From a virus: a DNA stretch of 40,975 nucleotides. The translations under genes and the position numbers were made by a program. The first letter of the stretch is position 1. Each line of letters opens with the position of its first letter. Of the stretch, positions 1-40,975 are shown in pieces. The notes under the pieces were generated by a model, which worked only from the letters and a program-made list of their open reading frames with translations, was not told the DNA's origin and made no database searches. The stretch covers positions 1 to 40,975 of the IMG/VR virus record IMGVR_UViG_3300025133_000255. One strand, written 5' to 3'.

Positions 1-467
1 CAAGGGCATCAGGCCCCCCTTTCTTTTTCCGTGCTTTTCCGCGTCCCCAGGAAGATCCCCAGGGCGACGTCGAAGTCCATCATATCCGAATCCATTTCCC
101 CGCATCTGAAACACTGATCGACCGCTTCCGCGTCCCCGGTTCCGTCGTCCCGATAGGTGTGGATCCAGTCCCGGCCGCGTCGGACGTCCAGACAGTTCAG
201 ACAGACCTTCGGCTTCGGATTCGACCTTCGGCCCCGGATCGCCTTCCGGATCCGCTTCGACCAGATCGACGCCTTCAGATCCCGGCCGAATAGGATCCAG
301 GATCCAGTGATCGACAGGACCGTCCATTTCGCCTTCAGGATCCCCAGGTTCATCCAGAAGGGACTGAAAACCCTTCCCCCCCCTGTAGTCCCCCCCCTTC
401 CCTTTTTGGATCCAGGGCGGACGACGTCCTTCGATCCGCAAGTCTGACAACCGTCTTCGAAGTCATA
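1..467. repeat. Left copy of the terminal direct repeat
   Basis: This block aligns without gaps to 40509..40975 at a constant offset of 40,508 bases. Bases 1-367 are roughly four-fifths identical by eye, with many third-position differences. Bases 368-467 are identical. It covers the 3' part of a zinc-ribbon gene and the first codons of the next gene (Met-Pro-Leu here, Met-Ala-Leu in the right copy). It is best explained as the overlap of a circular or terminally redundant genome assembled from two strain variants. A true gene duplication is the alternative. Confidence 0.9.
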
Positions 468-725
468 GTGAAACGGATATGTCCATTCGTGACAGTCGCG
501 ACAAAGCCATTCCCCATGATAACAGGCGCAACCGTTGAAGACGTCCAGGCGACAGGATCGACAGATCAATTCCCCGCCCAGGCGTTCCGCGGTTTCCCCG
601 TCCGGGATCTTCCTTGTCCGGCGAAGATGAAGGCCGACGGCCGACGCGGCCGCGCAATAGGCGACCCCGGCCAGGGCCAGGATCCCAGGTTCCATTCCCC
701 CGCATACATGACAGGCCAGAATCAT
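9..725 (-). CDS. Zinc-ribbon protein with N-terminal membrane segment (left allele)
   Basis: 238 residues, function not recognised. A CxxC (CHVC) lies at the extreme N-terminus, followed by a hydrophobic stretch at about residues 14-33 that could span the membrane. Further Cys pairs follow: CRSC, CRDC, CQTC, CLNC and CFRC, the pattern of several zinc ribbons. A Gly-rich linker near residue 110 is encoded by the G-run tract at 371..402, and a second semi-hydrophobic stretch (SITGSWILFG) follows. The ATG at 725 overlaps the stop of the upstream 59-residue gene. Its own TGA overlaps the ATG of a gene leaving the window at base 1. The same gene in variant form is at 40517..40975, so the two are probably alleles of one locus. 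Metal binding is inferred from the Cys spacing only. Confidence 0.85.
   Translation of the reverse strand: MILACHVCGGMEPGILALAGVAYCAAASAVGLHLRRTRKIPDGETAERLGGELICRSCRLDVFNGCACYHGEWLCRDCHEWTYPFHYDFEDGCQTCGSKDVVRPGSKKGRGGTTGGGRVFSPFWMNLGILKAKWTVLSITGSWILFGRDLKASIWSKRIRKAIRGRRSNPKPKVCLNCLDVRRGRDWIHTYRDDGTGDAEAVDQCFRCGEMDSDMMDFDVALGIFLGTRKSTEKERGA
371..402 (-). other. G-quadruplex/mirror-repeat tract, left copy
   Basis: Read on the minus strand this is G3-AA-G8-ACTACA-G8-AA-G3. It is nearly mirror-symmetric and satisfies the usual four-G-tract quadruplex pattern. It sits inside the zinc-ribbon gene, where it encodes a Lys-Gly-Arg-Gly-Thr linker. It lies in the 100 bases identical in the two terminal copies although the flanks have diverged. 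It also contains matches to GGGNAGGG, the FtsK KOPS consensus. Any structural role is inference. Confidence 0.6.
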
Positions 726-901
726 TTCAGACCCCCTTCCCGGTTCCAGGCTTCGACTTCATCGACCCGAAGGACGACTTCCTTCTTCAGTCCCAGGACG
801 ATCTTCACATAGGGGCCGACGACCGTCTTCACGATCCCCTGGGCCCATCCTTCGGTCCGCTTGTCATTCCGGTCGACCTTGACCGTGTCGCCTTCTTTCA
901 T
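722..901 (-). CDS. Small beta-rich KOW/SH3-like protein, 59 residues
   Basis: The ATG at 901 overlaps the TGA of the replication gene (ATGA) and the stop at 722 overlaps the start of the zinc-ribbon gene, so the frame fits exactly between neighbours. The protein starts MKEGDTVKVDRNDKR and alternates beta-prone stretches (GIVKTVVGPYVKIVLG, EVVLRVDEVEAW). The opening GDTVKV...G.V....G pattern resembles small KOW or SH3-like barrels. No specific function can be assigned. Codon use (GAA only, GTC, ATC) matches the genome, which supports that it is real. Confidence 0.75.
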   Translation of the reverse strand: MKEGDTVKVDRNDKRTEGWAQGIVKTVVGPYVKIVLGLKKEVVLRVDEVEAWNREGGLK

Positions 902-1695
902 TTCATCGCCCCTTTCAGCTTGTTCGTCAGGACGGCCCCGCGGTTGCGGGCATCTTCCCCCGCCCGGATTTCGGCCGCGAAGGTGTCCAGGATCCCGCGG
1001 AAGCTATGGTCCCCGATCTTCTTCAGGGCTTTCCGGTAGAATCCCGCGGCCCGTTTTCCGGATTCAGACTTCCGGTCTTCTTCGGTGATCGCGAAGGCGA
1101 CTTCGATCGGATCCATGTTCGGATCCATTATTGTCCCGGACGATAGCGTCAGAATGTCTTCCGAAGAAAAAGATGATTTATCATCCGACCCGACGCTTCC
1201 TTTCGGTTCATTTCTTTCTTTTCCTTTCGGTTCTTTCTTTCGGGATACCGGACGACCAGTCGCTGGTCGTTCACTGGTAGCGGACGACCAGTTCGATCCC
1301 AGTGTCTGGGTCGTGTCTGGGTCCGGGGTCCCGTCGTCGTCGACCTTTCCCCAGGCGATCCAGGCGATCTTCCGGCCCGTCAGGATCGGAATCGCGTCGT
1401 CGAATATCGCCTTCGGGAATCGGGTCTTCATCGCCAGATCTTCCGTGTCCAGGGGTTCCCCCTTGTCCCATAGAAGTCCGCGGATCGGCATCTTCGCCGC
1501 GACCTGAATGATCAGGATGAAGGCCGTGAAGATTCGACAGGCGTCAGGATCCCCCAGGGTCGCGACCCGTGCGAATCCGTTCCCGTCGTGTGCGTTCGGA
1601 AACGGGACCCATGAAAGGGAATCATATTTCCGGCTTTGTGCGTTTTCGAAGTGTTCATCCCATCCTGGAATGAATAGTGTTTTCCGTGCTGCCAC
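898..1695 (-). CDS. Replisome organizer-like replication initiation protein
   Basis: 265 residues starting with GTG at 1695 behind the strong ribosome site AAGGGGGCAAC. Residues about 25-115 carry the pattern of phage replisome organizers: WVPFPN, ARVATLGDP, a helix with VAAKMPIRGLL, then PLDTEDLAMKTRFP, which resembles a winged-helix recognition segment. A low-complexity polar linker follows (about 125-190), then a helical C-terminal part rich in Lys and Arg. Such proteins bind a phage origin and recruit host replication proteins. No phage helicase or polymerase is visible here, consistent with reliance on the host. It is the penultimate step of the recombination-replication cluster 5.3-0.9 kb. 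The origin itself was not found. Confidence 0.65.
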   Translation of the reverse strand: MAARKTLFIPGWDEHFENAQSRKYDSLSWVPFPNAHDGNGFARVATLGDPDACRIFTAFILIIQVAAKMPIRGLLWDKGEPLDTEDLAMKTRFPKAIFDDAIPILTGRKIAWIAWGKVDDDGTPDPDTTQTLGSNWSSATSERPATGRPVSRKKEPKGKERNEPKGSVGSDDKSSFSSEDILTLSSGTIMDPNMDPIEVAFAITEEDRKSESGKRAAGFYRKALKKIGDHSFRGILDTFAAEIRAGEDARNRGAVLTNKLKGAMK

Positions 1696-1712
1696 GTTGC
1701 CCCCTTGTGTGA

Positions 1713-2111
1713 TTAAGCGTTCCCCCGAAGTCGGAAGAATCCTTGAAGTTCATCGTCCCGCGTCATCGTCCAGATCGCAAGGCGTTTTTTCCAGTTGTTG
1801 TTCACCTTGTAGCCTTCACCGTCCGGCCCGTGTTTCAGGGCCTGTTCCCATCGGATCCGGTTCACGATCGCTTCGATCCCGAAGGTCTTCCATCCCCGGC
1901 GTTTCATCTGAAGGGAATAGCGGACGGTCAGGTTTGCGATTTCGCGGCCCGCGGCCGTGTGACGCCATTCGTCGAATTCGATCCAGTCCCCCAGGGGAAG
2001 CCCGAAGGCCCCCCCGTCTGGATCCAGGTCCTTCGCCTGGATCCATTTGGGGACGTCTGGAAGCGATTCCGGGAACAGGTCCAGGATACCGTTTCCAGAT
2101 TCGTCAGTCAT
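1713..2111 (-). CDS. Conserved phage protein of the replication cluster
   Basis: 132 residues. The C-terminal half contains GWKTFGIEAIVNRIRWEQAL, then NNNWKKRLAIW and GFFRLR. This is the layout of a common uncharacterised phage family that lies near replication genes in many genomes (IxxRIRW...NNN...GFF). No catalytic residues are evident. Its ATG at 2111 lies inside the 3' end of the Cas4-like gene (overlap of 8 bases), which implies translational coupling. The function is unknown. Position suggests a part in replication or recombination. Confidence 0.6.
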   Translation of the reverse strand: MTDESGNGILDLFPESLPDVPKWIQAKDLDPDGGAFGLPLGDWIEFDEWRHTAAGREIANLTVRYSLQMKRRGWKTFGIEAIVNRIRWEQALKHGPDGEGYKVNNNWKKRLAIWTMTRDDELQGFFRLRGNA

Positions 2112-3195
2112 CGCCTTGACCCTTCAGGACGTCTTCCAGGGGAAGGACCTTCTTCGTGACGGACTTCGCGGTCTTCTTCAGGGTGATCCCGAAGTCCTTC
2201 GTGATCAGGACCTTTCCGGATCCGGGCTTTTCGTCGATCATGACGGCCTTCCCGTGTCCCAGGATCCGCTTGTTCGCCGCTTCATAGGCGTCCCGCGGGT
2301 CCTTCGTGTCCGTGAAGATCTGACAGTCTTCGTTCAGGTCATCGTCCGACAGGCGATCGATGATTCCCTGGGCCCGTGTGATGTCCGGGACACACCAGGG
2401 CTGGAAGTCACACTTCGCGCAGATCCCCGGATCGAAGTCGATCCGACCAGGAAGGAAGTCTTCGACCTTTTCCAGAATCGCGGAAGACGGTTCATCCGTG
2501 TCCCAGGTCCCGCGGGCTTCCAGGATCTTCGCGGTCCGTTCCTTGATTTCGACGGCCCTTTCCAGGATGACGTCCATGTCGACCGCGTCCCGCGTGATCA
2601 GGATCTGGCGGTCTTCGTAGGACTGGGCGGACCGGATGAAGATCAGGCCCGCGTCGATCCGTCTGAAGTGCATATAGGTCGCGATCTGGACGGGATAGCA
2701 TCGCATATAGGCGGACGAATGATTCAACATCCATTCGATCGCGTCGACGTCGTCTTCCGGAAGCTTCCCGAAATATCCGTCGTGCATCGACTTCGCTTCG
2801 ACCGGGATCCGGATCGGTCGGGCCTGTCCTTCGATCTGGAAGGAAAGCGTGAAGTCGATCCGGCCCCCGATATCGAATTCGTTCGGCGGGATCTGGACTT
2901 CCTGTTCCAGAATTTCCGCCCCTGGGATAGCCTTCAGGGCTTCCTTCGCTTCCAGGACGATGTCTTCGCCTATGTTCCGCCCCCGTCTGAAGATCCCCAT
3001 CAGACCCGCGTCAGGGTCCCGAAGAAGGTCCCAGAAGGTTCGATGATAGACCAGGGAACGAAGACAGGGATGACCCACCTTCGAAGCGTATGTCGACCGG
3101 ACCGGATAGGTCTGGGATTCGTTGTCCCGCTTGTCGCGGATCGCCTGGGCGATGTTTGGGATCTGTTCCGTGGGAACGTGTGTCAGTTCTGGCAT
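2104..3195 (-). CDS. Cas4/RecB-type PD-(D/E)XK exonuclease with Fe-S cysteines
   Basis: 363 residues. Nuclease motifs appear in the expected order: GHPCLRS (Cys44), GGRIDF (Asp114), PVEAKS (Glu133, Lys135) and the QIATY motif near residue 170. A C-terminal cluster CAKCDFQPWC (Cys259, 262, 268) with Cys44 gives the four cysteines that bind a 4Fe-4S cluster in Cas4 and AddB proteins. The likely role is 5'-3' resection of double-stranded DNA, feeding the annealing-type protein at 4352..5341. About 90 residues after the Fe-S cluster are basic and unassigned. The start at 3195 has the ribosome site GAAAAGGGGCAATC within the repeated leader CACACGAAAAGGGG. No CRISPR array or Cas1/2 is nearby. Confidence 0.82.
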   Translation of the reverse strand: MPELTHVPTEQIPNIAQAIRDKRDNESQTYPVRSTYASKVGHPCLRSLVYHRTFWDLLRDPDAGLMGIFRRGRNIGEDIVLEAKEALKAIPGAEILEQEVQIPPNEFDIGGRIDFTLSFQIEGQARPIRIPVEAKSMHDGYFGKLPEDDVDAIEWMLNHSSAYMRCYPVQIATYMHFRRIDAGLIFIRSAQSYEDRQILITRDAVDMDVILERAVEIKERTAKILEARGTWDTDEPSSAILEKVEDFLPGRIDFDPGICAKCDFQPWCVPDITRAQGIIDRLSDDDLNEDCQIFTDTKDPRDAYEAANKRILGHGKAVMIDEKPGSGKVLITKDFGITLKKTAKSVTKKVLPLEDVLKGQGDD

Positions 3196-3237
3196 GATTG
3201 CCCCTTTTCGTGTGGTTAGGTCGATTCCAGTTTTCAG

Positions 3238-3270
3238 GGACGACCGTCCGACCTTGAACGGCCGTCCCCG
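3238..3270 (-). terminator. Stem-loop between FtsK-gamma and Cas4-like genes
   Basis: On the minus strand GGGACGGCCG pairs with CGGTCGTCCC (one G-U pair) across a 12-base loop. It lies in the only gap between the two genes and has no U-run. It may be an attenuator, an RNA-processing site or a 3'-end protector rather than a classic terminator. The rest of 3196-3281 holds only the leader of the downstream gene. Confidence 0.5.
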
Positions 3271-3281
3271 TGATTGATGTT

Positions 3282-4277
3282 CTATTCCGTTTCGGGTTCG
3301 GTGTCAAGGTCGACCAGGATGTCGCGGGCCCCGCCTTCCGGTCCTGGGGGCGACACGATCTTCCGTTCTTCCAGGACGTCCATGACGCGACAAGCGGCCG
3401 CGAATCCGATCTTCAGGCGACGCTGGATCGACGATGTCGACGCCCGCTTCGTTTCCTTCAGGACCTGGATCGCCGTTTCGACGTGACCTTCGTCGACGTC
3501 TTCCGGCTTCGTGGTTGCCCCTTCAGGCTTCCCGGACGGTTCCGCGGGTGTTTGGGTGTCCGTGTCCCCGTTCGCCCCGTCATCGCCATCCTGGACCCCT
3601 TCCTGACCGTCCTGGGCGTGAAGTTCCGGGAACAGTGTCAGTTCGCGGGCCCGTTCTTCCGATCGGATCGCCCGTTCGTTCGCGATCGTCCCGGTGTCCT
3701 TCCGGATTTCAGTGACGATTCCTTTGTCGAAGTCCGTGATCTGATCGCAATCGACAGACCGGACTTCGTATCCGGCCCGAAGGCGTTCCGATTCGGCTTC
3801 GATCGTGGATTCCGCGGCCTGGACTTCGGACTGGATCTTCTTCTTCACCGTGTCCAGATCCGACTTCCGGGCCTGGATCGTCGCCATCGCGTCCGCGATC
3901 TTGTCCCCGGCTTCCAGGCGTTCGTCCGTCGTCAGTTCGACGCGAAGGGGATTCGTGACCCGCTTCTTTTCGATCGCCCGTTTCCGGATCCGCCCGACCG
4001 GGACGTCGACCAGGACGTCGGCCTGGGCCGTGACGACGCGACGATCGCCTTCCGGCGTGACTTCTTCGACGTCCAGGACATCCAGGGTCCCCCGGATGAT
4101 CTTCGCGACGATCGACAGGCCGTCCGCGACTTTCCCCAGGACCTGGGCCCCTTCGACGATGACGCCTATCCATCGGGCCCCGTCGTCCCCCATGACGGAC
4201 ACTTCGGTCGCCCGCGGGTGTTCAGTGTTCCAGGCTTCCGCCTGGGCCTTCGCTTCGCTCTTTTTCAGGTTTCCCAT
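3282..4277 (-). CDS. Coiled-coil phage protein with C-terminal FtsK-gamma DNA-binding domain
   Basis: 331 residues from the ATG at 4277, preceded by CACACGAAAGGGGGG. Residues about 115-225 form a long helical segment (ARKSDLDTVKKK, AESERLRAGYEVRSVDCD, NERAIRSEERA), like a common phage protein family found beside recombinases. An acidic low-complexity linker of about 35 residues follows. The last 65 residues match the FtsK gamma winged helix closely: KRASTSSIQRRLKIGF, VLEERKIVSPPG, GGARDILV. In FtsK this domain reads the octamer GGGNAGGG and activates XerCD. There is no motor domain, so the gene supplies only the DNA reader. A role in directing recombination or in using host XerCD or FtsK is inference. 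Confidence 0.7.
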   Translation of the reverse strand: MGNLKKSEAKAQAEAWNTEHPRATEVSVMGDDGARWIGVIVEGAQVLGKVADGLSIVAKIIRGTLDVLDVEEVTPEGDRRVVTAQADVLVDVPVGRIRKRAIEKKRVTNPLRVELTTDERLEAGDKIADAMATIQARKSDLDTVKKKIQSEVQAAESTIEAESERLRAGYEVRSVDCDQITDFDKGIVTEIRKDTGTIANERAIRSEERARELTLFPELHAQDGQEGVQDGDDGANGDTDTQTPAEPSGKPEGATTKPEDVDEGHVETAIQVLKETKRASTSSIQRRLKIGFAAACRVMDVLEERKIVSPPGPEGGARDILVDLDTEPETE

Positions 4278-4312
4278 GATAGGGTCCCCCCTTTCGTGTG
4301 TTGTGGTGTTGT

Positions 4313-4341
4313 GGGGCCCCCAGGCGAATCCCAGGGGCCCC
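4313..4341 (-). terminator. GC-rich stem-loop downstream of annealing-type gene
   Basis: GGGGCCCC is repeated in inverted order around a 13-base loop, directly after the stop of the gene at 4352 and before the next leader. No U-run follows on the transcribed strand. It belongs to a set of GC hairpins that punctuate the early operons (5715, 9570, 10295, 11551). Confidence 0.5.
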
Positions 4342-4351
4342 GTGTGAATGA

Positions 4352-5341
4352 TTACCAGGGAAGATCTTCCCCACCATCGGCCGGGGGCGTCCCGTCCGGG
4401 GGCGGACCATCCTGGGGGGCTTCCTGGGCCGGGGCCGGATCCGCGGCCTGGGATCCGACGACGGATTCGAAGGTCTTCTTCACTTGTTCGAAGGTGATCT
4501 TCAGACCGTTCGCGGAAATGCCCTTGATCGATCGCCATCCCTTGAATTTGTCGGACGTGGTGATCGTCTGACAAACCGCGTCGGCCGTCGTCGGTTGCGG
4601 AAGGCCTTCGCGGGTGAATCCGGCTTGAAGAAGGGCCTGACACATTCGGGCGATTTCGCCCTTCTGATCAGACTGTTCCCCGTTGTCCGTGTTCCCCCCC
4701 TGGGATCCCTTCTGGAACGTGTGTCCCTTCATGGATCCGGCGTTCTTCCCGACGCGGTTCATTTCTTCTTCGTTCGAATCGCCCGACAGGCCCAGAAGGG
4801 CCAGGATCCCTTTCTTCCGACATTCGGTCGCGGCCATCTGACGGATGAATCGTTCGTCGACTTCGGACACGTCCAGCTTCCCACCGCGGGAAAGGAATTT
4901 GTCCCGCGAAGACGCGGCCCCAGAACATTCGATCGATACCATCCCAGGGATCGACGCGATTCCGAAACATTCATAAACATAGTACGGCCCGACGTCGTCC
5001 TGGTAGTTGACCCGTGTGAACAAGGGTCGACCGTCCGGGTCCTTCAGATAGGCGAAGGACGCCCCGATCGTCGCGGCGACGACGTCCGAATAGTTCTTAT
5101 TCCGTCGGATCGTCATTCCCTTCCCAGGGTCTTCGAAACGATCGAAACAGTCCGGACTGACGCGGTGATCGATGACCGCTTTGATCCGGTCAAGAAGCTG
5201 GACGCGGGTGTCGACGGCCGCTTCCATTTCCTTCAGGTGTGCAAGGGACAACGCGGTCGATCCGGTTGTCGTGAGTGATCCCCCGTCGCGTTCCGCGGGA
5301 AGGATTTCGGGGACGTGTGCCCCGTCGTTCGGTGTGGTCAT
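4352..5341 (-). CDS. Putative single-strand annealing/recombination protein
   Basis: 329 residues. The core (about 70-190) holds DVVAATIGASFAYLKDPDG, a YECFG strand, and FIRQMAATECRKKGILALLGL, a helix pattern seen in phage annealing and ssDNA-binding proteins that lie next to exonucleases. From about residue 275 the protein becomes Pro, Gly and Asp rich and ends GGEDLPW, much like the acidic-hydrophobic tip of SSB proteins. It lies between the Rad50-like ATPase and the FtsK-gamma and Cas4-like genes, which supports a recombination role. The exact fold family (RecT, Erf, Rad52 or other) is not clear from reading. It is the first gene after the candidate promoter at 5428..5456. Confidence 0.55.
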   Translation of the reverse strand: MTTPNDGAHVPEILPAERDGGSLTTTGSTALSLAHLKEMEAAVDTRVQLLDRIKAVIDHRVSPDCFDRFEDPGKGMTIRRNKNYSDVVAATIGASFAYLKDPDGRPLFTRVNYQDDVGPYYVYECFGIASIPGMVSIECSGAASSRDKFLSRGGKLDVSEVDERFIRQMAATECRKKGILALLGLSGDSNEEEMNRVGKNAGSMKGHTFQKGSQGGNTDNGEQSDQKGEIARMCQALLQAGFTREGLPQPTTADAVCQTITTSDKFKGWRSIKGISANGLKITFEQVKKTFESVVGSQAADPAPAQEAPQDGPPPDGTPPADGGEDLPW

Positions 5342-5427
5342 ATTGACCCCCTTCGTGTGATGTTCCGGCCGTCCCAGGTTCGGCCGTTGCTCCGTGTCCG
5401 TCGGACCCCTGGGCGATCCGAATTCAA

Positions 5428-5456
5428 TTTATATCCGTTTATCATTTGACCGTCAA
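5428..5456 (-). promoter_or_regulatory. Candidate promoter P5.4
   Basis: On the minus strand TTGACG is followed after 17 bases by TATAAA. The AT-rich stretch stands out from its GC-rich surroundings and sits in the gap 5342-5452. The 17-mer GATAAACGGATATAAAT (5427..5443) recurs exactly at 7808..7824 upstream of the ribbon-helix-helix gene, so it may be a shared operator as well as the -10 region. Predicted transcripts begin about 80 bases before the ATG at 5341. The -35 overlaps the last codons of the upstream gene. Confidence 0.65.
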
Positions 5457-5698
5457 GTCGTCTTCGCGATGTCGTCCGTCGGAAGGGTCAGGCCTTCGAC
5501 CAGGGCTTCGATCGTCGGCCGGGAATGTCCGCCCCAGGATACCGTTTCGGGGTTCACGGGGATCCGGATGTCCAGATCCGCTTCGAAGGTTTCCGGTCCA
5601 GATCCCCGGTGATCGTGTTCAAAGGCGTCCGCCTTCGCCTGATCGGTCGTCGCCTGGGTGTCCAGGCCTGACGATGTCTTTGAAAAGAAGATCTTCAC
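5453..5698 (-). CDS. Hypothetical 81-residue protein
   Basis: The GTG at 5698 is chosen because the ribosome site AGAAAGGACG lies just upstream and the earlier in-frame ATG falls inside the preceding hairpin and the ATPase gene. It starts VKIFFSKTSSGLD, is Thr, Asp and Glu rich, and contains HDHRGSG and RIPVNPETVSW. No family is recognised. It follows the Rad50-like ATPase gene and is probably in the same operon. Confidence 0.6.
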   Translation of the reverse strand: MKIFFSKTSSGLDTQATTDQAKADAFEHDHRGSGPETFEADLDIRIPVNPETVSWGGHSRPTIEALVEGLTLPTDDIAKTT

Positions 5699-5714
5699 GT
5701 CTGACGTCCTTTCT

Positions 5715-5734
5715 GGGGGCCCCGAAGGGCCCCC
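5715..5734 (-). terminator. UUCG-capped stem-loop after the ATPase gene
   Basis: The minus-strand RNA would read GGGGGCCCUUCGGGGCCCCC: an 8-bp GC stem closed by a C(UUCG)G tetraloop, one of the most stable RNA hairpins. It lies 13 bases after the ATPase stop and 16 bases before the next GTG, without a U-run. Transcript protection or attenuation is more likely than full termination. Confidence 0.6.
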
Positions 5735-5747
5735 TGACGGGGTTTCC

Positions 5748-7289
5748 CTAGTTGAACAGTTCAAAGGCCGGGGGCTTCGGTTCCGCGTCGTCTTCGGCTT
5801 CCTGGGCCGCGTTTCGCTTCGCCAGTTCTTCCCGGATCAGATCCGCGTCGGTCTTCTTCGCGGCCTTCTTCGTTTCGGCCTGGGCCTTTTCGACTTTCGC
5901 CTGGGCCGCTTTGACTTCTTCGGTCAGTTCGGCCCCGTCGTCCGCGGGCTTCATCTTCGGATCCGTTTCCAGATCCGGGGCTTCCCCGAATTCCCCGGTC
6001 CCGTCGACGATTTCGACTTCGGGTCCATAGGCGTCCCGCTTGAAGACGGATTCGATCCAGACCTGGGCGTCGGCCGCTTCCGCGGTTTCCAGAATCGCCC
6101 GAAGGTTGTTCCGGTCCAGGTCGTTCCCGGCCTTGATCAGAAGGACCTTCAGTTTCGGATTCATCGCGATCGCGATCTGGGTCGCGACCCGAAGGCGTTT
6201 CCCGGTCCCCAGGTTTGCCAGGGGGAAGCCTTCGAAGGTCAGGCCCGTGTCATCGAATCCGATCCCTTCCAGGCCATCAGGAAGGCCCGCCTGGGCGATC
6301 CTGTCCTTCTTCGCCTGTTCGATCCCGGACAGTTCGTTCGTGAATTCCAGGACCTTCGCTTCCGCCTTGTCGATCTGGACGGCCAGGGCCGCTTTCGCCT
6401 TCTTCGCCCGGACGTTGATGTTCACCGTTTCCGCCTGGGCGATCTGGGCCTTGATCGGTTCCGGATCCGCGGGGATGTCGACCTTCGTCAGACGGTCTTC
6501 GGCCGCGGTCTGTTCGTCCTGGGCCGCTTTGATGTCGTTCTGGGTCCGCTGATATTCGTCTTCCGCGTCCTTCATGGACTTCCGAAGACTGTCCAGGCGT
6601 TCCGCTTGTGTCCGGGCCCGGATCTGGAAAGCTTCGACCGCGTCGACGGCCTGGGTGACTTCCCGTTCCCCGTCCTTCCGGGCTTCCCCCTGGGCCGCGA
6701 TCGTTTCCAGATCCGTCATCAGGTCCTGGACGACGACTTCTTCGTCCGGGGCGTTGTCCAGATCCGGATCGAAAGCCTTCAGGGTTCCCTTCTGATCCCG
6801 GATCCAGACGTTTCCCTTCCGCCTGGATTCGTAGACGTCCGCGAATCGCCTGTCCAGATCCCCCAGGTCGATCCCCAGGGCGTCCTGGACCGCTTCGGCC
6901 TGTTTGATCGGATCCATGTTCGCCAGGGCGACCGGATCGATCCCTATGGCCCCGACAAGCTTGTCCAGGGACGCCTGGGACCCGACCATCCCGTCGGCCG
7001 TCTTCACGATCAGACGGGGGGCCTGTCCTTCCTTGAATACCTTCCGGACGGTCAGGTCGACTTCATCGTCGCCCAGGGCGATCCGGATTTCCCCCTGGGT
7101 TTCCCCGCGACGGATCGGATCCGCGATCCGGCCCCCGCAAAGGGCCATCAGGATCGAATCCAGTGTCGTCGATTTGCCTTCGTCATTATTCCCGACGATG
7201 AAGACAGGGCCTTCGTCTTCGGGGTTCAGGTTGATCCGGACGGCCTTCAGGCGTCGGATCCGTTCCGCTTCCAGTGATAGGATCTTCAT
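5748..7289 (-). CDS. Rad50/SMC/RecF-like ATPase
   Basis: 513 residues from the ATG at 7289 (ribosome site GAAGGGGAATCG). The start IRRLKAVRINL and Walker A GNNDEGKST (33-41) are typical of Rad50, SbcC and RecF ATPases. Residues about 200-330 are coiled coil, shorter than in cellular Rad50. The ABC signature region is LGTGKRLRVA (360-369) and the Walker B region KVLLIKAGNDLD (381-392); both depart from consensus, with no clear DE pair. A charged coiled tail (about 455-500) follows, then PPAFELFN. Probably a DNA-end or recombination ATPase acting with the Cas4-like nuclease and annealing-type protein. No Mre11-like partner is visible, so the nuclease may replace it. Confidence 0.78.
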   Translation of the reverse strand: MKILSLEAERIRRLKAVRINLNPEDEGPVFIVGNNDEGKSTTLDSILMALCGGRIADPIRRGETQGEIRIALGDDEVDLTVRKVFKEGQAPRLIVKTADGMVGSQASLDKLVGAIGIDPVALANMDPIKQAEAVQDALGIDLGDLDRRFADVYESRRKGNVWIRDQKGTLKAFDPDLDNAPDEEVVVQDLMTDLETIAAQGEARKDGEREVTQAVDAVEAFQIRARTQAERLDSLRKSMKDAEDEYQRTQNDIKAAQDEQTAAEDRLTKVDIPADPEPIKAQIAQAETVNINVRAKKAKAALAVQIDKAEAKVLEFTNELSGIEQAKKDRIAQAGLPDGLEGIGFDDTGLTFEGFPLANLGTGKRLRVATQIAIAMNPKLKVLLIKAGNDLDRNNLRAILETAEAADAQVWIESVFKRDAYGPEVEIVDGTGEFGEAPDLETDPKMKPADDGAELTEEVKAAQAKVEKAQAETKKAAKKTDADLIREELAKRNAAQEAEDDAEPKPPAFELFN

Positions 7290-7320
7290 GTTCGATTCCC
7301 CTTCGTGTGTTGTGTGTTGT

Positions 7321-7512
7321 TCAGTGTCCGTTCGTGTGCATTGTCCCGGCCGGGGCCGGATAGGATTCATGATCGAAGCATCGGGCCCCCATGATCCCCA
7401 GGGCGACGACCAGGGCCGCGACCGCGACGGCCAGGATCCAGGTCCTGACGACAGGCGGACGCTTTTCCAGATCGGTCTTCAGGATCCGGGACACGTCTTC
7501 GACCCGGATCAT
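7321..7512 (-). CDS. Small single-pass membrane protein
   Basis: 63 residues. A charged N-terminus (MIRVEDVSRILKTDLEKR) precedes one transmembrane helix at about residues 24-42 (WILAVAVAALVVALGIMG), then a short polar tail with HESYPAPAG. The ATG at 7512 overlaps the TGA of the upstream ribbon-helix-helix gene. Function unknown. With no other lysis gene in this region, an early membrane role such as exclusion is as likely as a holin. Confidence 0.6.
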   Translation of the reverse strand: MIRVEDVSRILKTDLEKRPPVVRTWILAVAVAALVVALGIMGARCFDHESYPAPAGTMHTNGH

Positions 7513-7682
7513 CGGATCCCCTGACGGTCCGCGTCTTCCTGGATCAAGATCCGAAGAAGGGCCGTCCGGCTTCGTAGACCCCTTTTCAGTTTCAGCTTGT
7601 CCAGACGTCGACGAAGACGCTGATCTTCTTTGCTTGTGGTGATCGGAAGTCCGATCGTGGTCGTCCCTGTTGCTTTCGGCAT
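7509..7682 (-). CDS. Ribbon-helix-helix (CopG/Arc-like) regulator
   Basis: 57 residues from the ATG at 7682 (ribosome site GAAAGGGGCAACC). A beta-prone stretch TTTIGLPIT is followed by two basic helices (SKEDQRLRRRLDKLKLK, RSRTALLRILIQEDADRQG), the size and order of ribbon-helix-helix DNA-binding proteins. It lies directly downstream of the candidate promoter with the inverted repeat at 7804..7817, and the same 17-mer occurs at the 5.4 kb promoter. Autoregulation and control of the recombination operon are inferred. An in-frame upstream ATG at 7802 exists, but its 40-residue extension looks like translated leader. Confidence 0.6.
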   Translation of the reverse strand: MPKATGTTTIGLPITTSKEDQRLRRRLDKLKLKRGLRSRTALLRILIQEDADRQGIR

Positions 7683-7718
7683 GGTTGCCCCTTTCGTGTG
7701 ATGACAGACCGATCCCGC

Positions 7719-7740
7719 AAGGCTTCGAACGCGAAGCCTT
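7719..7740 (-). promoter_or_regulatory. Perfect leader hairpin upstream of the ribbon-helix-helix gene
   Basis: AAGGCTTCG and CGAAGCCTT form a perfect 9-bp stem around a 4-base loop in the roughly 110-base leader between the candidate promoter and the ATG at 7682. It could regulate translation or mRNA stability. The rest of the gap 7683-7839 holds the promoter and no convincing gene. Confidence 0.5.
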
Positions 7741-7802
7741 TCCCCGGAAGACATCGTCCCCCGGCCGCGGTCAGTGTGTCGTGTTGTGTGAACATGAATC
7801 AT

Positions 7803-7831
7803 AGGATATTTATATCCGTTTATCTTTGCAA
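7803..7831 (-). promoter_or_regulatory. Candidate promoter P7.8 with operator-like inverted repeat
   Basis: On the minus strand TTGCAA, 17 bases, then TATCCT. Bases 7804..7817 form the inverted repeat GGATAT-AA-ATATCC over the -10 region. The 17-mer GATAAACGGATATAAAT is shared with P5.4. The AT content is far above the surroundings. It would drive the ribbon-helix-helix gene and probably the membrane protein and ATPase genes beyond. The -10 is only a moderate match, and TATAAA five bases upstream is an alternative. Confidence 0.55.
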
Positions 7832-7839
7832 GTCTTTAT

Positions 7840-8712
7840 TCAATCCAGAAGCGTCGCGAAGTCGGCTTTCAGTTCTGCCCGGAATTCCGCTTGTTCGCGA
7901 TCTTCTTCGTCTTTCAGGGCTTCATATAGGTCCCGGTCGAAAACATCTTCCAGGGCCCCTTCCAGAAGGTCCTTGATCTTTTCAGGCCGGACCGCGTCCA
8001 GTTCGACCTGTCCGATCCCGTCCCAGTTCGCGGCCCGCGAATCCTTCGACTTCGTCGGGGCCGGGGGAAGGTTCCAGTCCAGGACCTGATCTTCCATCAG
8101 GGCGATCCGTCGGACTTCGACACTGACCCCCATCTTGAAAAGGGATTCCCCTATCGATCGGGGAATATCTTCCCCGGAACAGTCGTAATCCCCGAAGTAA
8201 AGGATGACGGGATCCTTCCCTAGATCCTGGGCGTCCCGGAAGCGGACGGCCGCGTCATTCAGAAACGTGATCGACGGATATCCCTTGCAAGGGTTCAGGG
8301 CGACGTCCCAATGAAGACAGGGCCTTTCGAAGACCGTCTGAAGGGCTTTCTTTTCGATGAACACTTCGGGGAATATGGGTTGATTTTCCCATCGGTTTTT
8401 CGAATAGCTTGTCGCCCAGATCCGGATCTGGGACTTCGCCTTCGCGGCCGCTTCCGCGACGTTCGTTTCGTCGGCTTCGGTGATCCCCATCGTTTCCCGG
8501 TCGTGATCGACGAAGGCGTCGAAGGACAGGTCCCGCGACCATCGGGCCGCGATCATCGCGGACACGACTTTCTTATAGTGCCGGATGTCGTTCGTCATCC
8601 CCAAGGCGACCAGTTGATAGTGAAGGGCCCGAAGCGTCAGGCCCCCGTGATAGCTTTCCACAATGGGAAGCCCTTCCGCCATGATCCAGGCGCGATCGAA
8701 TACTGATTTCAT
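7840..8712 (-). CDS. TOPRIM protein related to topoisomerase VI subunit A/Spo11
   Basis: 290 residues. The N-terminal LTLRALHYQLV resembles the CAP-domain segment of TopoVI-A and Spo11, whose tyrosine attacks DNA; Tyr32 is in that position. A TOPRIM domain follows: FIEKKAL (Glu120) and LYFGDYDCSG (Asp175, Asp177). The C-terminal part has DQVLDWNLPPAP and VELDAVRPEKIKDLL, seen in a phage and prophage TOPRIM family. Catalysis is inferred from motifs; no TopoVI-B (GHKL ATPase) gene is visible, so it may act alone or be a nuclease. It lies between the methyltransferase gene and the ribbon-helix-helix promoter. The last 40 residues are very acidic. Confidence 0.65.
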   Translation of the reverse strand: MKSVFDRAWIMAEGLPIVESYHGGLTLRALHYQLVALGMTNDIRHYKKVVSAMIAARWSRDLSFDAFVDHDRETMGITEADETNVAEAAAKAKSQIRIWATSYSKNRWENQPIFPEVFIEKKALQTVFERPCLHWDVALNPCKGYPSITFLNDAAVRFRDAQDLGKDPVILYFGDYDCSGEDIPRSIGESLFKMGVSVEVRRIALMEDQVLDWNLPPAPTKSKDSRAANWDGIGQVELDAVRPEKIKDLLEGALEDVFDRDLYEALKDEEDREQAEFRAELKADFATLLD

Positions 8713-8724
8713 GTCCGTCCCTTT

Positions 8725-9519
8725 CTATTGCCCGTTAGCTTCAAAGAAGGCCTGGGCGAAGCCTTCCGGAGTGTTTGACCGAAGTTCCTTCGTCTTGTCC
8801 GACTTCCCGCCCAGGCGCATCAGGGGGGATCCCTGTTTGCAGCATCGGACCGGATCGATCGATCGCTTCGTCGGGAATTTGAAGTCGCCCCATAGTCCGG
8901 TCCGCTTCGTGTAAGCGTTCCAGTCGACGACGAATTCAGTTTCCGCGGCCGTGACATCGGCCCCGCCCTTTTTCCGGATCCGGTCCAGTTCGTCCAGGAT
9001 GTCCTGGGACGGGTTCAGGTGTCCGGCGAATTCGTGGGGCTGAAAATACTGGGGGCGGAAGGGGGCGTCGGTCCATCCGTAGAATCCGCCAGGGCCCCCG
9101 GCCTGTTCGTCCAGGTCCGCGCAAGGCCAGACGTCGACCAGGGACGGCAAGCGGCCGACAGGGTTTTCCAGGGCCCAGAAGAAGGATCCCCCGTCGTCAT
9201 AGAAGTCCGGATCCGTCGGCCGGAACAGATCGACGATCTGGAAACTGATCTGAAGAAGTTCCAGGGCTTCCGCGGTTGTCCCGGCCGCGTCCTTCGCGGG
9301 CCAGTATTGCGATCCGGAAACGCTGAAGTCCGTGCAAGGGACCGCGCTCAGGATCCCGTCGATCGTGTCCCATCGTTCGAAACAAGCTTCGGCCGAATCC
9401 AGGTCCCGGATGTCGTCCCCATCCTTCAGGTCGAAATTATAGACGTCCCATTTTCCAGAATCCCAGAAGGGCCTGGACCATGCTCCGGAGTAGTCAAAGA
9501 AGGAAAGAAGTGTTTTCAT
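8725..9519 (-). CDS. C5-cytosine DNA methyltransferase family protein
   Basis: 264 residues from the ATG at 9519. Motif I is represented by LLSFFDYSGAWSRPF, motif IV by ILSAVPCTDFS (Pro61-Cys62, the catalytic pair), and motif VI by WALENPVGR (118-123). A region with RPQYFQPHEF and the C-terminal NTPEGFAQAFFEANG correspond to late motifs. It is short for a C5 methyltransferase (usually above 300), so the target-recognition region is small. It probably modifies phage DNA against restriction; the target cannot be read from the sequence. Three of the rare GAG/CTC trinucleotides of this genome lie in this gene (about 8769, 9347, 9483). The ribosome site is weak (ACACGAAAGCGACGACG). Confidence 0.7.
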   Translation of the reverse strand: MKTLLSFFDYSGAWSRPFWDSGKWDVYNFDLKDGDDIRDLDSAEACFERWDTIDGILSAVPCTDFSVSGSQYWPAKDAAGTTAEALELLQISFQIVDLFRPTDPDFYDDGGSFFWALENPVGRLPSLVDVWPCADLDEQAGGPGGFYGWTDAPFRPQYFQPHEFAGHLNPSQDILDELDRIRKKGGADVTAAETEFVVDWNAYTKRTGLWGDFKFPTKRSIDPVRCCKQGSPLMRLGGKSDKTKELRSNTPEGFAQAFFEANGQ

Positions 9520-9569
9520 CGTCGTCGCTTTCGTGTAGGTTGTTGCCGTCCGTTCAATCCCCGTCGTGT

Positions 9570-9601: not shown

Positions 9602-9602
9602 G

Positions 9603-33596: not shown

Positions 33597-35111
33597 CTAT
33601 TCTTCGACGACGTCTTCTTCGTCATCCTGGGCCCCTGGAAGGGGGGCCGTGACCATAGCCTGAAGATCCGCGAAGTCCATGTCGTCGATTTCCTGATTTG
33701 CTTCTTCCAGGGTCGTTTCGTCCAGGTGATAGACTTTGTCCAGGACCTTGACTTTCACCTTCGCGATCGCCCGAAGGATCGTTTCCGGAAGGTTCGACGT
33801 GTTTTCCATTTCGGTCAGGATCCGCCAGTCGTTTTCCAGATCCGGAAGATCAAATTGACGGGGATACGAAGGGACATAGTCGTCGAAGGTCGTGTCCAGT
33901 TGCCGGGAAATGTCGACGGCCTTCGTTTCGGATTCTTCCAGTTCTTCGGCATTGTCGGCCAGGGACGCTTCGACGTCTTGATGGTCCCAGGCTTTCGAAT
34001 CCGCGGACTGGACCTGTTTCGTGTCGGTTCCCCGAAGGGCCTGTCCGACGACTTCAAACAGTTCGCCCCGGCGTCGCTTCAGTTCGTCCGGGATCGCCTT
34101 CATGTCGGCCGCGTTCGGCATGATCAGACGGGTCAGGCCCTTGTCTTCGGTCGGTTCCATCATGGGGAATTCGATCCCGCGGACCATTTCCAGGGCTTCG
34201 TCGAAGGTCCTGGATGACATCGCCATCAGTTCCCGGATCAGGGAAGACGGGATGATCAACTGGGGGAAGACCGCTTTGATCAGGTTTTCATGGTGTGCGG
34301 ATTCCAGATTCAACATTGACGCCTGGATCCGTTCGACATCGTCAAACCAATGGGGGGCCGTCGACGGTCGACCGTGAAGGACGAAGGGGACGACCTTCGC
34401 GGAAAGCTTGAATTCTTCTTCCCGTTCGATGTCGGTCGACGTTCCCGGCTTCATGAACATCCGGACGCCTTCGCCTTCTTCCCAAAGTGTCCGGACGCGA
34501 CGGGTTTCCGGATCCCCGGCCGGATCCGCGTTGTCATATTCGTCGGTTTGGGTGATCAACCATTTCAGGGTCCCGTCCGAATTGAAGCACCAGTCGACGA
34601 CTTCGTCCGCCCGCCAGTGTGTCCAGAAGATCCGATCCCCGGCCTGTTTCCGGGCCGCGACAGATCGACGCCCAGGCTTCCCGGTTGCCGGATCGATCCC
34701 TGGGGTCCCGCGGTCGATCCCGATCCAGGACCATTGACCCGCGATCTGATTCCGGCCGACTTGTTTCATCAGATTATCGATCGTCATCCCCGTCTTCGTC
34801 GCGTCCTTCCGGAAGACGGCGTCGATTCCGTCGCGGGCGACCCCCTGGGAAAAGACGTATTGAATGATCTTCGTCGTGACGCGGCCCGCGTAATTGATCA
34901 GGAAGGCCCGTTCCTTCCGGGACCGGATCGTCCCGTCAGAAGACCCTTCCCAGGAAAGCTTCGATTCGGAAGGGAATCGGGTCAGTCGGTCGTTTATGTA
35001 CGGCCCGCCCCCGGCGTCGGCCATCAGATTCCGCTGAATCTGGGTTTTCCGGTCCGTCAGGATCAGGTGTTCCCGTGTCGCCCGCTTGTCGCTTTGTTTC
35101 TTGCCCGCCAT
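33597..35111 (-). CDS. Portal protein
   Basis: 504 residues, correct length and position between large terminase and scaffold. Segments include INYAGRVTTKIIQYVFSQGV, IFWTHWRADEVVDWCFN, KVVPFVLHGRPSTAPHWFDDVERIQASMLNLES and ELKRRRGELFEVVGQALRG, typical of siphovirus portals. An acidic tail ends the protein. It forms the dodecameric DNA gate. Preceded by one copy of the GAAATCCTGGCC intercistronic leader. The gap 33466-33596 after it holds another copy and no gene. Confidence 0.82.
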   Translation of the reverse strand: MAGKKQSDKRATREHLILTDRKTQIQRNLMADAGGGPYINDRLTRFPSESKLSWEGSSDGTIRSRKERAFLINYAGRVTTKIIQYVFSQGVARDGIDAVFRKDATKTGMTIDNLMKQVGRNQIAGQWSWIGIDRGTPGIDPATGKPGRRSVAARKQAGDRIFWTHWRADEVVDWCFNSDGTLKWLITQTDEYDNADPAGDPETRRVRTLWEEGEGVRMFMKPGTSTDIEREEEFKLSAKVVPFVLHGRPSTAPHWFDDVERIQASMLNLESAHHENLIKAVFPQLIIPSSLIRELMAMSSRTFDEALEMVRGIEFPMMEPTEDKGLTRLIMPNAADMKAIPDELKRRRGELFEVVGQALRGTDTKQVQSADSKAWDHQDVEASLADNAEELEESETKAVDISRQLDTTFDDYVPSYPRQFDLPDLENDWRILTEMENTSNLPETILRAIAKVKVKVLDKVYHLDETTLEEANQEIDDMDFADLQAMVTAPLPGAQDDEEDVVEE

Positions 35112-35129: not shown

Positions 35130-35151
35130 CGGCCAGGATTTCCGGTCGTCA
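35130..35151 (-). promoter_or_regulatory. Intercistronic leader element, copy 5
   Basis: CGACCGGAAATCCTGGCCG between large terminase and portal, followed by GAAAGGGTC as the portal ribosome site. Confidence 0.55.
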
Positions 35152-36690
35152 GTTCCCGGCCAAGTGCCGGAAGAATTCCGGGGACGCGATCCCCGCCTTC
35201 GTTTTCATGAATCCGTCGAACATGACGGCCGTCGCGTCGACCGCGTCGTCGTGGGACCCATCTGGGAATTGTGTGAAGTGCTGTTTCCAGAAGTCATTCC
35301 AGGGGGCCCGAAGGACGTGGACGCGGCCCGCGTTGAACGCTTCTTCCATCGGTGACGCCTTCGCGACCTTGTCCCCAGGCATCCGGGAAGGTTCGACCAG
35401 GACGACGCCCCGCAAAAGCTTTTTGAACGACGTGAAGGCGTCTTTATAGGCCCCGAAGGCTTCCATGTGATGACTTGTCGATCGCCCGTCCCGGATGACC
35501 GTGTCCAGGATCGTCTTGTCCCGCCCAGGGGCTTCCGCCTGAAGATGGACGACGTCCGCGATCCATAGGTCGACCGATCGAAGTTCGACCCCCTGGACGT
35601 GTTCCGTGTGAATCTGGACAAACCCTTTCGTCCCGACCGTGAAGTCCGGATCGTCCTTCGCCCTTTGTTTTTCGGATGACGCCAGATCCCATCCCCGCTT
35701 GTATCCCCGAAGACTGAAGGATCCGTCGTCCATTTCGACCGCGTTCGGGAAGTCGGCCAGGGTGTCGTGATAGACGATCTTCGTCATTTCGAACATATTC
35801 CCGCCTTCCATGACGGGATCGCAATCCAGAAGGGCCGGGGCGAAGGTCCCCTGGGCGGAATATTGTCCGCGATACCATTCCGGGGGGAATCGCTTTTCGA
35901 ACAGGAAGGACCCATCCCAGGCCCCGGTCTTCGGGTGTTTGTTCTTCGCGGGGAAGGTCAGTTCTTCGAATCGCGGGAAGTCCGGGTCGTCGGCCATCGC
36001 TTTCTTGATCCGGCCGCGGACGTCGTCGACGTGCCAGGGCGTCGCGACGACCAGGACGATCGAATTCGGGGCCCGCCTGGAAATAAGATCCTGGAATCGG
36101 GCCCAGGTCTTCTTCCGATAGGTTTCCGATCGGGCTTCGTCGCGGTTCTTGCAATAGTCATCCAGGACGATCAGATCCCCGCCCTTTCCCGTCATCCCCC
36201 CGCCCAGGGCGACGGCATAGACCCGACCCGTCGACCCGTCGACACTCCATTCGTGGACGGCCCGTTCGTATCTGGAAAGTTTGATGTCCGGGAACAGGGC
36301 CTGGAATTTCGGGGACTGGATGATTCCCATCGCGTCTTTGCTGAATCCCTGGACCAGTGTGTCGCCATATCCGGACATCATGACATCCGGATCCAGGCCC
36401 GCTTCGCGACACTTCGCCAGGAAGAAGGGCGGAAGGGCCCGCGACGATATGTCAGATTTCCCGTGTCTGAAGGGGACCGCGATCAGAAGGAAGGTCGACT
36501 TCCCCTTGAAATAGTCCGCGATCGCTTTGTCGATCCTGGAACAGATCGCCTTCGTGTGACGGCCGATCAGAAGGGTCCAGGGCTTCCACCAGACCCCCTT
36601 CAGGAAGCCTTCCAGGGTTGCCCGTGCCTTCTTCCGGTCCGCCCGGATCTTCGCGATCCGCTTCCGGATCCGGCTTCGCTTGTCAGGCAT
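35149..36690 (-). CDS. Terminase large subunit
   Basis: 513 residues. ATPase motifs: Walker A VPFRHGKS (72-79), Walker B DLIVLDDYCKN, and the coupling-type VLVVATPWH. The nuclease domain shows YKRGWDLASSEK and DGSHDDAVDA with metal-binding acids. It packages DNA into the prohead with the small subunit upstream, which it overlaps by 8 bases. Circular map overlap at the ends is compatible with headful (pac) packaging, but the type cannot be fixed by reading. Confidence 0.92.
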   Translation of the reverse strand: MPDKRSRIRKRIAKIRADRKKARATLEGFLKGVWWKPWTLLIGRHTKAICSRIDKAIADYFKGKSTFLLIAVPFRHGKSDISSRALPPFFLAKCREAGLDPDVMMSGYGDTLVQGFSKDAMGIIQSPKFQALFPDIKLSRYERAVHEWSVDGSTGRVYAVALGGGMTGKGGDLIVLDDYCKNRDEARSETYRKKTWARFQDLISRRAPNSIVLVVATPWHVDDVRGRIKKAMADDPDFPRFEELTFPAKNKHPKTGAWDGSFLFEKRFPPEWYRGQYSAQGTFAPALLDCDPVMEGGNMFEMTKIVYHDTLADFPNAVEMDDGSFSLRGYKRGWDLASSEKQRAKDDPDFTVGTKGFVQIHTEHVQGVELRSVDLWIADVVHLQAEAPGRDKTILDTVIRDGRSTSHHMEAFGAYKDAFTSFKKLLRGVVLVEPSRMPGDKVAKASPMEEAFNAGRVHVLRAPWNDFWKQHFTQFPDGSHDDAVDATAVMFDGFMKTKAGIASPEFFRHLAGN

Positions 36691-39920: not shown

Positions 39921-40024
39921 GACTTTCCCTTCCGTTTGATCAGGACGATCAGGATCGCGGCCAGAAGGCCGACAACCAGGACAGGAAAGACCAGGGCGAC
40001 GATCAGGGCTTCATATTGACCCAT
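39917..40024 (-). CDS. Small membrane protein, 35 residues
   Basis: The ATG at 40024 (or 40027) follows CGGGGGAACCG. MGQYEALIVALVFPVLVVGL continues the single transmembrane helix to residue 29 and ends KRKGKS. The positive C-terminal tail implies a cytoplasmic C-terminus. Possibly a toxin-like or lysis-modulating membrane peptide. Confidence 0.55.
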   Translation of the reverse strand: MGQYEALIVALVFPVLVVGLLAAILIVLIKRKGKS

Positions 40025-40269
40025 CATCGGTTCCCCCGATCGTCCGCGGTTTCCCGCGGTTTCCGGAATCGGTCCGCGTCCGGACAGGTCGCGAAGTGCG
40101 ACGTGTGTCCTTCGACCTGGGTCCAGTCCCCAGGATCCCCGACCAGATCGGCCGGACCCTGTTTCCAGATCCGGACAGGATCCGCGTCGACCGGATGACT
40201 TTTCCCCCTGGGCGTCCGGATGAAAAAGATCCGGGCCCGACAGGATCGACAATTCACGATTTTCTTCAT
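40024..40269 (-). CDS. Zinc-ribbon-like protein, 81 residues
   Basis: MKKIVNCRSCRARIFFIRTP, then GKSHPVDADPV and, near the end, HTSHFATCPDADRFRK. The pattern CxxCxAxIxF..T..GK..PVD...SHFATCP is common in small phage proteins thought to bind zinc. Exact role unknown. Confidence 0.65.
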   Translation of the reverse strand: MKKIVNCRSCRARIFFIRTPRGKSHPVDADPVRIWKQGPADLVGDPGDWTQVEGHTSHFATCPDADRFRKPRETADDRGNR

Positions 40270-40517
40270 CGGAAGTTCCCCCTGGGCGGGACGACGATCG
40301 GCCCGCGGTTCGGATCGTCGAAGATCCCCGCCTTTTCAAACAGGGCTTTGACGACCCGCATCGTCTGATCGGCTTTCGCGTGAAGGGAAGGCGTCGCCCC
40401 GATCGCCCCCAGTTTGACTTCGCCCGTCGCGGGATTCATCGCGATCGTGACCAGGACCGGGATCCCGTGTTTCTCTGCTATCATCTTCAGATCTTGCGTC
40501 GCTTCTGACAAGGCCAT
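40266..40517 (-). CDS. Hypothetical 83-residue protein
   Basis: ATG at 40517 sharing a base with the upstream stop, with GAAAGGGGGGCCTG before it. MALSEATQDLKMIAEKHGI, then VLVTIAMNPATGEVKLGAIG and RVVKALFEKAGIFDD. Not recognised. The start of the left-end counterpart (Met-Pro-Leu, bases 9-1) belongs to the same gene in variant form. Confidence 0.6.
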   Translation of the reverse strand: MALSEATQDLKMIAEKHGIPVLVTIAMNPATGEVKLGAIGATPSLHAKADQTMRVVKALFEKAGIFDDPNRGPIVVPPRGNFR

Positions 40518-40975
40518 CAGGCCCCCCTTTCGTGTTCCGTGTTTTTCCGCGTCCCCAGGAAGATCCGAAGTCCGACATCGAAGTCCATCATGTCCGAATC
40601 TTCTTCCCCACATTTCCAGCATTGATCTATCGGTTCGACATCATCCCGGCCGTCGCTTCGATAGGTGTGAAGCCAGTCCCGGCCCCGACGGATGTCCAGA
40701 CAGTTCGAACAGATCTTCGGTTTCGGATTCGACCTTCGGCCCCGGATCGCTTTTCGGATTCGGTTTCGGGAAATGGATTCCTTCAGATCGCGACCGAATA
40801 GGATCCAGGATCCAGTGATCGACAGGAAGGTCCATTTCGCCTTCAGGATCCCCAGGTTCATCCAGAAGCGTCCAGAAACCCTTCCCCCCCCTGTAGTCCC
40901 CCCCCTTCCCTTTTTGGATCCAGGGCGGACGACGTCCTTCGATCCGCAAGTCTGACAACCGTCTTCGAAGTCATA
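40517..40975 (-). CDS. Zinc-ribbon protein, right allele (5' end cut by the window)
   Basis: 153 codons are open up to the window edge and correspond to residues 86-238 of the left-end gene. Cysteine pairs CQTC, CSNC and CWKC are kept; many third positions and some residues differ (KASIWSKR against KESISRNR). The true start lies outside the right edge or, on a circular map, at position 725. Same Gly linker and G-tract (40879..40910). Differences are mostly silent or conservative, so both versions are under selection as working genes. Confidence 0.85.
   Translation of the reverse strand, partial: YDFEDGCQTCGSKDVVRPGSKKGRGGTTGGGRVSGRFWMNLGILKAKWTFLSITGSWILFGRDLKESISRNRIRKAIRGRRSNPKPKICSNCLDIRRGRDWLHTYRSDGRDDVEPIDQCWKCGEEDSDMMDFDVGLRIFLGTRKNTEHERGA
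40879..40910 (-). other. G-quadruplex/mirror-repeat tract, right copy
   Basis: Identical to 371..402, inside the 100-base identical block of the terminal repeats. Confidence 0.6.

Follow-up and report, generated by a model that had tools for sequence, protein, structure and literature searches.

Near-absence of GAG/CTC and other short words from a phage genome, read as avoidance of host restriction-like systems

Introduction

Restriction-site avoidance is known from haloviruses of the HF1 group (PMC7230728) and from a survey of viruses and prokaryotes (PMC4687349), and the portions of these papers drawn on here deal mainly with palindromes of 4-6 bp. Apart from this, phages can be depleted of the protospacer-adjacent motifs (PAMs) of CRISPR-Cas systems (excerpts of PMC4246573 and PMC12174588), and chloroviruses, which are viruses of algae, encode the nickases Nt.CviQXI (R/AG) and Nt.CviPII (/CCD) with 3-bp asymmetric targets (PMC7019647, in part). 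Here we analysed the phage contig of IMG/VR record IMGVR_UViG_3300025133_000255 over its whole length of 40,975 nucleotides (positions 1-40975, hereafter the window), which carries nearly all its genes on the minus strand and is depleted of the words GAG/CTC, GCAG/CTGC, GCGC and TTGG/CCAA.

The losses resemble the described cases of restriction-site avoidance in touching both strands, in affecting several words together, in word sets that differ between relatives and in reaching zero copies for some words, but the strongest word is here an asymmetric 3-mer accompanied by asymmetric 4-mers. In kind, this is restriction-site avoidance, of which the 3-bp asymmetric word and the asymmetric 4-mers make an unusual variant. 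With PAM depletion the window shares a short asymmetric word and selection on DNA, but the effects in the excerpts used here are far weaker than the 98% loss in the window, which extends to several words, one of them palindromic. The chlorovirus nickases are alike in their 3-bp asymmetric targets, and R/AG covers GAG, but AAG is not avoided in the window, and no homologue of these enzymes came to light, though no search was aimed at one. The Ssp phosphorothioate defence, which nicks phage DNA and uses the 3-base motif CCA, is similar in its short asymmetric motif and different in the word itself. Our literature search for a purge of GAG/CTC or of any trinucleotide in phages returned no paper.

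Results and Discussion

Depletion of GAG/CTC in the window

The window holds 29 GAG/CTC sites (18 GAG and 11 CTC) against about 1597 expected from a dinucleotide model (852 and 745), a ratio of 0.018, and the other trinucleotides were far less depleted, the next lowest being TTA (0.32), CAC (0.34) and GCA (0.39). A preliminary description made from the letters alone had reported this near-absence, with about 16 sites, nine GAG and seven CTC, outside 14.1-15.4 kb, and the exact count returned identical figures. A codon-preserving shuffle agreed; it was run on 49 genes of our choosing, with the gene at 14.1-15.4 kb (the cassette gene, see below) left out. In these genes glutamate was written GAA 785 times and GAG twice, CTC accounted for 2 of 920 leucine codons, and cross-codon words were avoided as well (GAG 4 against 196.9, z -19.8; CTC 7 against 218.5, z -19.6), all as previously described. 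Lysine was encoded by AAG and AAA in the ratio 549/263 and glutamine by CAG and CAA in the ratio 288/94; AAG/CTT was over-represented in the window. The classic ribosome-binding word GGAGG had zero copies, and gene starts carried GAAGGG-type stretches instead (39 starts, inspected by eye).

The depletion is real and extreme, and it is both lineage-specific and selective. It extended to each orientation and to every codon phase, and sites were lost at silent positions rather than through one type of mutation, so the earlier view that the pressure acts on DNA and not on mRNA was upheld, and a DNA-level defence or modification is the best-supported reading. Relative to the genes, the purged words were balanced in orientation (GAG 7/9, TTGG 20/16, GCAG 5/2). 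Type III restriction systems can be evaded by keeping sites in one orientation only, and the balance argues against such an evasion here.

The cassette gene (14115-15410, minus strand) encodes 431 amino acids with a signal-peptide-like start and contains 13 of all 29 GAG/CTC sites (nine GAG, four CTC), about a third of the 35.2 expected for it; 12 of the 13 were GAGY (GAGC or GAGT). Its counts for the other words were 3 against 5.7 for GCAG, 6 against 9.0 for TTGG and 3 against 9.0 for GCGC. A sister phage, G001, holds different genes at this place, and relatives of the cassette gene were not found in viral_contigs. The gene reads as recently acquired and only partly purged.

Outside the cassette gene all 16 NGAGN contexts were low (order-1 Markov model), the highest being GGAGT (6/89) and TGAGC (2/42), with CGAGG (0/196) among the lowest. 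A single 4-mer or 5-mer containing GAG, suggested before as a possible source of the signal, therefore does not explain it, and the target is either the 3-mer as such or a set of four or more 4-mers with GAG in common. Under the second option several 4-bp asymmetric restriction systems (GAGG, CGAG, GGAG and others) would jointly remove GAG with no 3-bp enzyme, which we consider unlikely. GAGG is a known motif (PMC3936762, in part) and, of the extensions of GAG, had the lowest ratio in G001 (0.19 in the codon shuffle, against 0.80 for TGAG and 0.64 for GAGT), and in the cassette gene GAGR (GAGG or GAGA) filled 1 of 45 possible sites compared with 12 of 49 for GAGY (Fisher p 0.002), an imbalance that makes a union of 4-bp systems possible. 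However, it is the lowness of every context that such a union has to account for, with four or more 4-mers that happen to have one core in common. An extended footprint, GnCGAGGGGnnTTT, was seemingly visible in G001 and in two further depleted relatives (L024, L002), but flank effects were equally large for other words; hence no such footprint is claimed, and the preference for GAGR over GAGY is kept as a caution.

Other purged words

Against the codon-preserving null the window contained 7 GCAG/CTGC for 288 expected, 18 GCGC for 217 and 39 TTGG/CCAA for 274, and GCA (0.30), GTA (0.40) and TAA (0.27) were moderately low. GAG is not the only depleted word, and the preliminary description had missed both these moderately low trinucleotides and the three 4-mers, whose purge is almost as strong as that of GAG. 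The same words were low to a weaker degree in G001 (GCAG 0.21, TTGG 0.34, GCGC 0.53) and likewise in L024 (0.15, 0.26 and 0.17). TAAG was left off the list of targets, as deficits of TAAG, TTAA and TAAC also occur in GC-rich loci without the other purges (L026, L149). Set against a target length of 4-8 bp, GCAG, GCGC and TTGG fit and GAG does not. Of the first proposal, a GAG-reading system of defence or modification, selection on a DNA word is supported. A single GAG-centred system is less so, because other words are purged along with GAG and the sets differ among relatives, which speaks more for a restriction-like arsenal.

Loss of sites between the window and its sister phage

The window is broadly collinear with G001 (IMG/VR 3300035698_006555, 39491 bp), in which GAG stands at 0.18-0.20 of expectation. 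The two were compared over 37 gene pairs, which aligned over 26349 coding bases and were 72% identical. Only 3 of the 158 GAG/CTC sites of G001 were retained in the window, along with 0 of 31 GCAG, 1 of 57 TTGG and 6 of 88 GCGC. Nine distinct control 4-mers (GACG and CGTC being one word) were retained at 0.29-0.61, and retention was intermediate for CAGC (0.17), CCAC (0.20) and GTGC (0.06).

In-frame GAG of G001 had become GAA in 28 of 52 cases and in-frame CTC had become CTG (15) or CTT (4) among 30, while cross-codon CTC (xCT followed by C) had turned into CCC (7), CAC (4) or CGC (2) among 18. Overall, 121 of the 209 changed bases at lost sites lay at third codon positions, the silent base being the usual one to change and transversions being included. 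A spelling free of GAG/CTC exists for every amino-acid pair, and so the purge is possible without any change of protein.

These replacements tell against mutational bias or hypermutation, raised earlier as the alternative, as the remover of GAG/CTC. The excess of AAG/CTT is what C-to-T change at CTC would give, and it had suggested a CTC-to-CTT deamination signature, but this was dropped as the changes track the silent codon base. Most replacements are of other kinds, no single substitution class acting independently of codon phase was seen, and relatives in the host class are unaffected; we regard such a bias as highly improbable.

Across four aligned genomes, 50 of 55 GAG/CTC positions were private to one genome, the corresponding fractions being 13/13 for TAG, 15/16 for TAA, 70/90 for GCA, 33/43 for GTG and 152/352 for GAA. 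The private positions fit young, transient sites, a weak support because rare words are often private.

Distribution among relatives

The major capsid protein (Gp13-like; 31669-32739, minus strand) gave 79 relatives that were examined for GAG, plus L002-L004. Only L002 (0.104), L024 (0.079) and G001 (0.18) were depleted, the lowest of the others being L028 and L044 at 0.48-0.49. The portal protein (33597-35111, minus strand), on which a family search and a tree were based, gave 52 loci; the 50 with new locus ids were analysed, and L303 proved to be G001 again. Here L304 and L305, with 54% identity to the window, were low in two trinucleotides, GAG (0.22 and 0.24) and CGA (0.24 and 0.26); after them the lowest GAG ratio was that of L348 (0.57). 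As L304 and L305 are identical over 11.7 kb, they were counted as one lineage. Both are also depleted of GATC and GCTG.

In the portal tree of 36 rows, the six GAG-depleted rows formed one group (support 86/89, 86% of 200 bootstrap trees). It is thus moderately supported by these sequences that GAG depletion marks one clade of six contigs in five lineages. The repeat of the count in related phages and the host class, as earlier suggested, gave six depleted contigs, the window included, and 19 stretches from the host class lay at 0.75-1.05, none being depleted.

Other members of the portal family have lost other words. L325 had no CCGG, GGCC, AGCT or GTAC for 60, 66, 34 and 31 expected, L328 had AGCT at 1/54 and GATC at 3/48, L322 had TCGA at 0/89 and L323 had GGCC at 2/94, and GATC was absent from L316 (0/41), L317 (0/31) and L319 (0/42). 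In L325, L328, L336 and L322 several restriction palindromes (AGCT, CCGG, GGCC, GTAC, GATC, TCGA) are missing at once, some with zero copies. In a wider word scan of 138 sequences, from which loci below 9000 bp or with fewer than 7000 coding bases were dropped, 15 had some word below 0.2. Among these were phages only distantly related to the window, namely L011/L012 (G005) with GCAG, TTGG and TCAG, L067/L071 with ACAG, CCAG, CCAC and GCAG, and L100 with GCAG and GATG. L011 and L012 are near copies (99.98%) and were therefore counted as one lineage. L012 is distant from the window (methylase 41%, capsid 33%, terminase 22%) and normal for GAG, yet avoids GCAG and TTGG; a shared-host reading based on the composition of L011/L012 was replaced by this shared word purge.

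Two phage proteins were considered as causes. The C5-methylase-like protein (8725-9519, minus strand; phrog_757, E 1.3e-35, with a Pfam match under the cut-off) was rejected, the 13 loci of its relatives not being GAG-depleted (0.73-0.98). A phage nuclease, such as the small HNH endonuclease-like protein (24739-25092, minus strand; phrog_144), might attack GAG in host DNA, with the phage kept safe by its own lack of GAG. The chlorovirus R/AG and /CCD enzymes show that virus-encoded 3-bp nickases exist (PMC7019647, in part), and in a search of 60 family sequences, with L002 and L024 too short to test, HNH relatives were confined to G001, L304 and L305, all of them GAG-depleted. But the terminase small subunit gives the same three matches, so plain relatedness explains the distribution, and such a nuclease would leave GCAG, GCGC, TTGG and the lost palindromes of the relatives unexplained. 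We hold it to be rather improbable.

Host and the FtsK-gamma domain

An open reading frame at 3282-4643 (minus strand), whose true start is probably near 4.28 kb, has at its end an FtsK-gamma domain that closely resembles FtsK of PVC-group bacteria. The domain has 57% identity to FtsK of a 'PVC group bacterium' genome, compared with 29-48% for five genomes from outside that group, and matches were found in all 194 genomes drawn from that PVC phylum, the best at 57-63%. In one class of the phylum (345 genomes), which may be Kiritimatiellia, 28 genomes had DNA matches to positions 976-20975 of the window, 12 of them at the gamma domain. Genomes of this class also carry relatives of the terminase large subunit (35149-36690, minus strand; 51% in G329, compared with 82% in the phage G001) and of the portal protein (39-45% in G329, G410, G259 and G252). 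The hosts are probably PVC-group bacteria. In Vibrio phages a domain similar to FtsK-gamma sits in genes annotated as recombination-associated exonuclease.

In 400 kb of the host-class genome G286 (L271-L290) the most strand-skewed 8-mer was GAGCAGGG (41 against 5), which is likely the FtsK-orienting sequence (KOPS) of G286. The phage could then be avoiding the core of a host KOPS that its own putative FtsK-gamma protein would also bind, and both the skewed 8-mer and the host-like gamma domain suit this idea. But the counts of GGGNAGGG match expectation in the window (13 against 14.4) and in G001 (10 against 8.7), and no KOPS purge was seen in five other records with gamma domains, which leaves the idea with next to no likelihood.

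GAG might also be the PAM of a host CRISPR-Cas system, shed by the phage. Phages depleted of PAMs have been described (PMC4246573, PMC12174588), a 3-nucleotide asymmetric word suits a type I PAM, and the per-site cost would be small and additive. But the largest median log-ratio in the part of PMC4246573 used here is -0.59, against about -4 in the window, GAG is not the sole depleted word, and GCGC, the 4-mers and the palindromes lost in relatives would be unexplained. Ten short host-class matches all came from the late half of the phage and lacked CRISPR-like repeats. A PAM origin is very unlikely in our view, and the PAM, mutational and KOPS explanations all fit worse than avoidance of host restriction words.

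Other features of the contig

Besides the genes above, a 1263-aa protein (26627-30418, minus strand) combines a minor-capsid domain with a HipA_C kinase-like match that is weak and under the Pfam cut-off, and a TOPRIM-like protein (7840-8712, minus strand; phrog_6247, named DNA topoisomerase) is present in the window and was not found in G001. Signal-peptide-like starts, unusual for genes of a phage structural region, were noted by eye at 14115-15410 and 15456-16391 and at 3703-4323 and 27774-28544 of G001. A stretch of 469 bp recurs at both contig ends (1-467 and 40509-40975) with 87% identity; it may be a terminal overlap that has diverged, or a gene in two copies. Positions 1-25000 had no megablast match among named phages, nor did the HNH and sigma-like proteins match any, and scans with two early proteins of the window returned G001 alone.

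Avoidance of host restriction words and its implications

On balance we think it more likely than not that long purifying selection keeps the words of host restriction-like systems out of the DNA of this phage clade, the words being for the window at least GAG/CTC, GCAG/CTGC, GCGC and TTGG/CCAA. A new GAG would arise through mutation or gene import, would make cutting or nicking of the DNA slightly more probable where the host restricts, and would then be removed by any silent change at hand. The agent would be a host restriction-like enzyme set in a PVC-group bacterium, one member of which would read the 3-bp asymmetric GAG. The per-site cost is probably small, as 29 sites are tolerated, 13 of them in one gene.

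Short, strand-symmetric word sets that are swapped between relatives and partly coincide with known restriction-modification (R-M) motifs are what restriction avoidance produces. The methylated R-M motifs of Helicobacter pylori include GCAG (type III), GCGC, GAGG and GTAC, while the 3-mer GAG, CGA and TTGG have no match in the part of PMC3936762 used here. As a positive control, the H. pylori phage KHP30 was without GTAC, TCGA and ACGT, and in lambda only CTAG and one CTAG-containing 5-mer were low.

Several points weigh against this reading. No enzyme was found, and a 3-bp target is shorter than is usual for restriction. GAGG and GAGA are avoided more than GAGC and GAGT in the cassette gene and partly in G001. 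KHP30 was not depleted of GCAG or GAGG at the cut-off used. Rare words are kept less overall between the window and G001 (GCA 56/338, GTA 35/200, TAA 13/161), although each of these is retained better than GAG, and a larger share of their positions is confined to a single genome. Avoidance of sites read by a restriction-like arsenal of the host, with an asymmetric 3-bp word among its targets, is nevertheless the best reading.

Site avoidance here reaches 98% for a 3-bp asymmetric word, far beyond the PAM-depletion medians given in the part of PMC4246573 used here, which suggests that host restriction specificities may be readable from the words missing in phages. GAG, CGA, GCAG, TTGG, TCAG and others are on this basis predicted enzyme specificities in uncultivated hosts, some of them shorter than expected for restriction enzymes. 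More tentatively, the hosts of this clade may possess a defence acting on DNA, through restriction, nicking or the sensing of modifications, with GAG as its target, and a related defence with CGA, the second low trinucleotide of L304/L305, as its target. If so, DNA of this composition would, when not purged, offer a target roughly once in 25 bp. Such a defence would be among the most frequent-cutting ones known, and it would have been revealed without culture, through the words missing from its phages.

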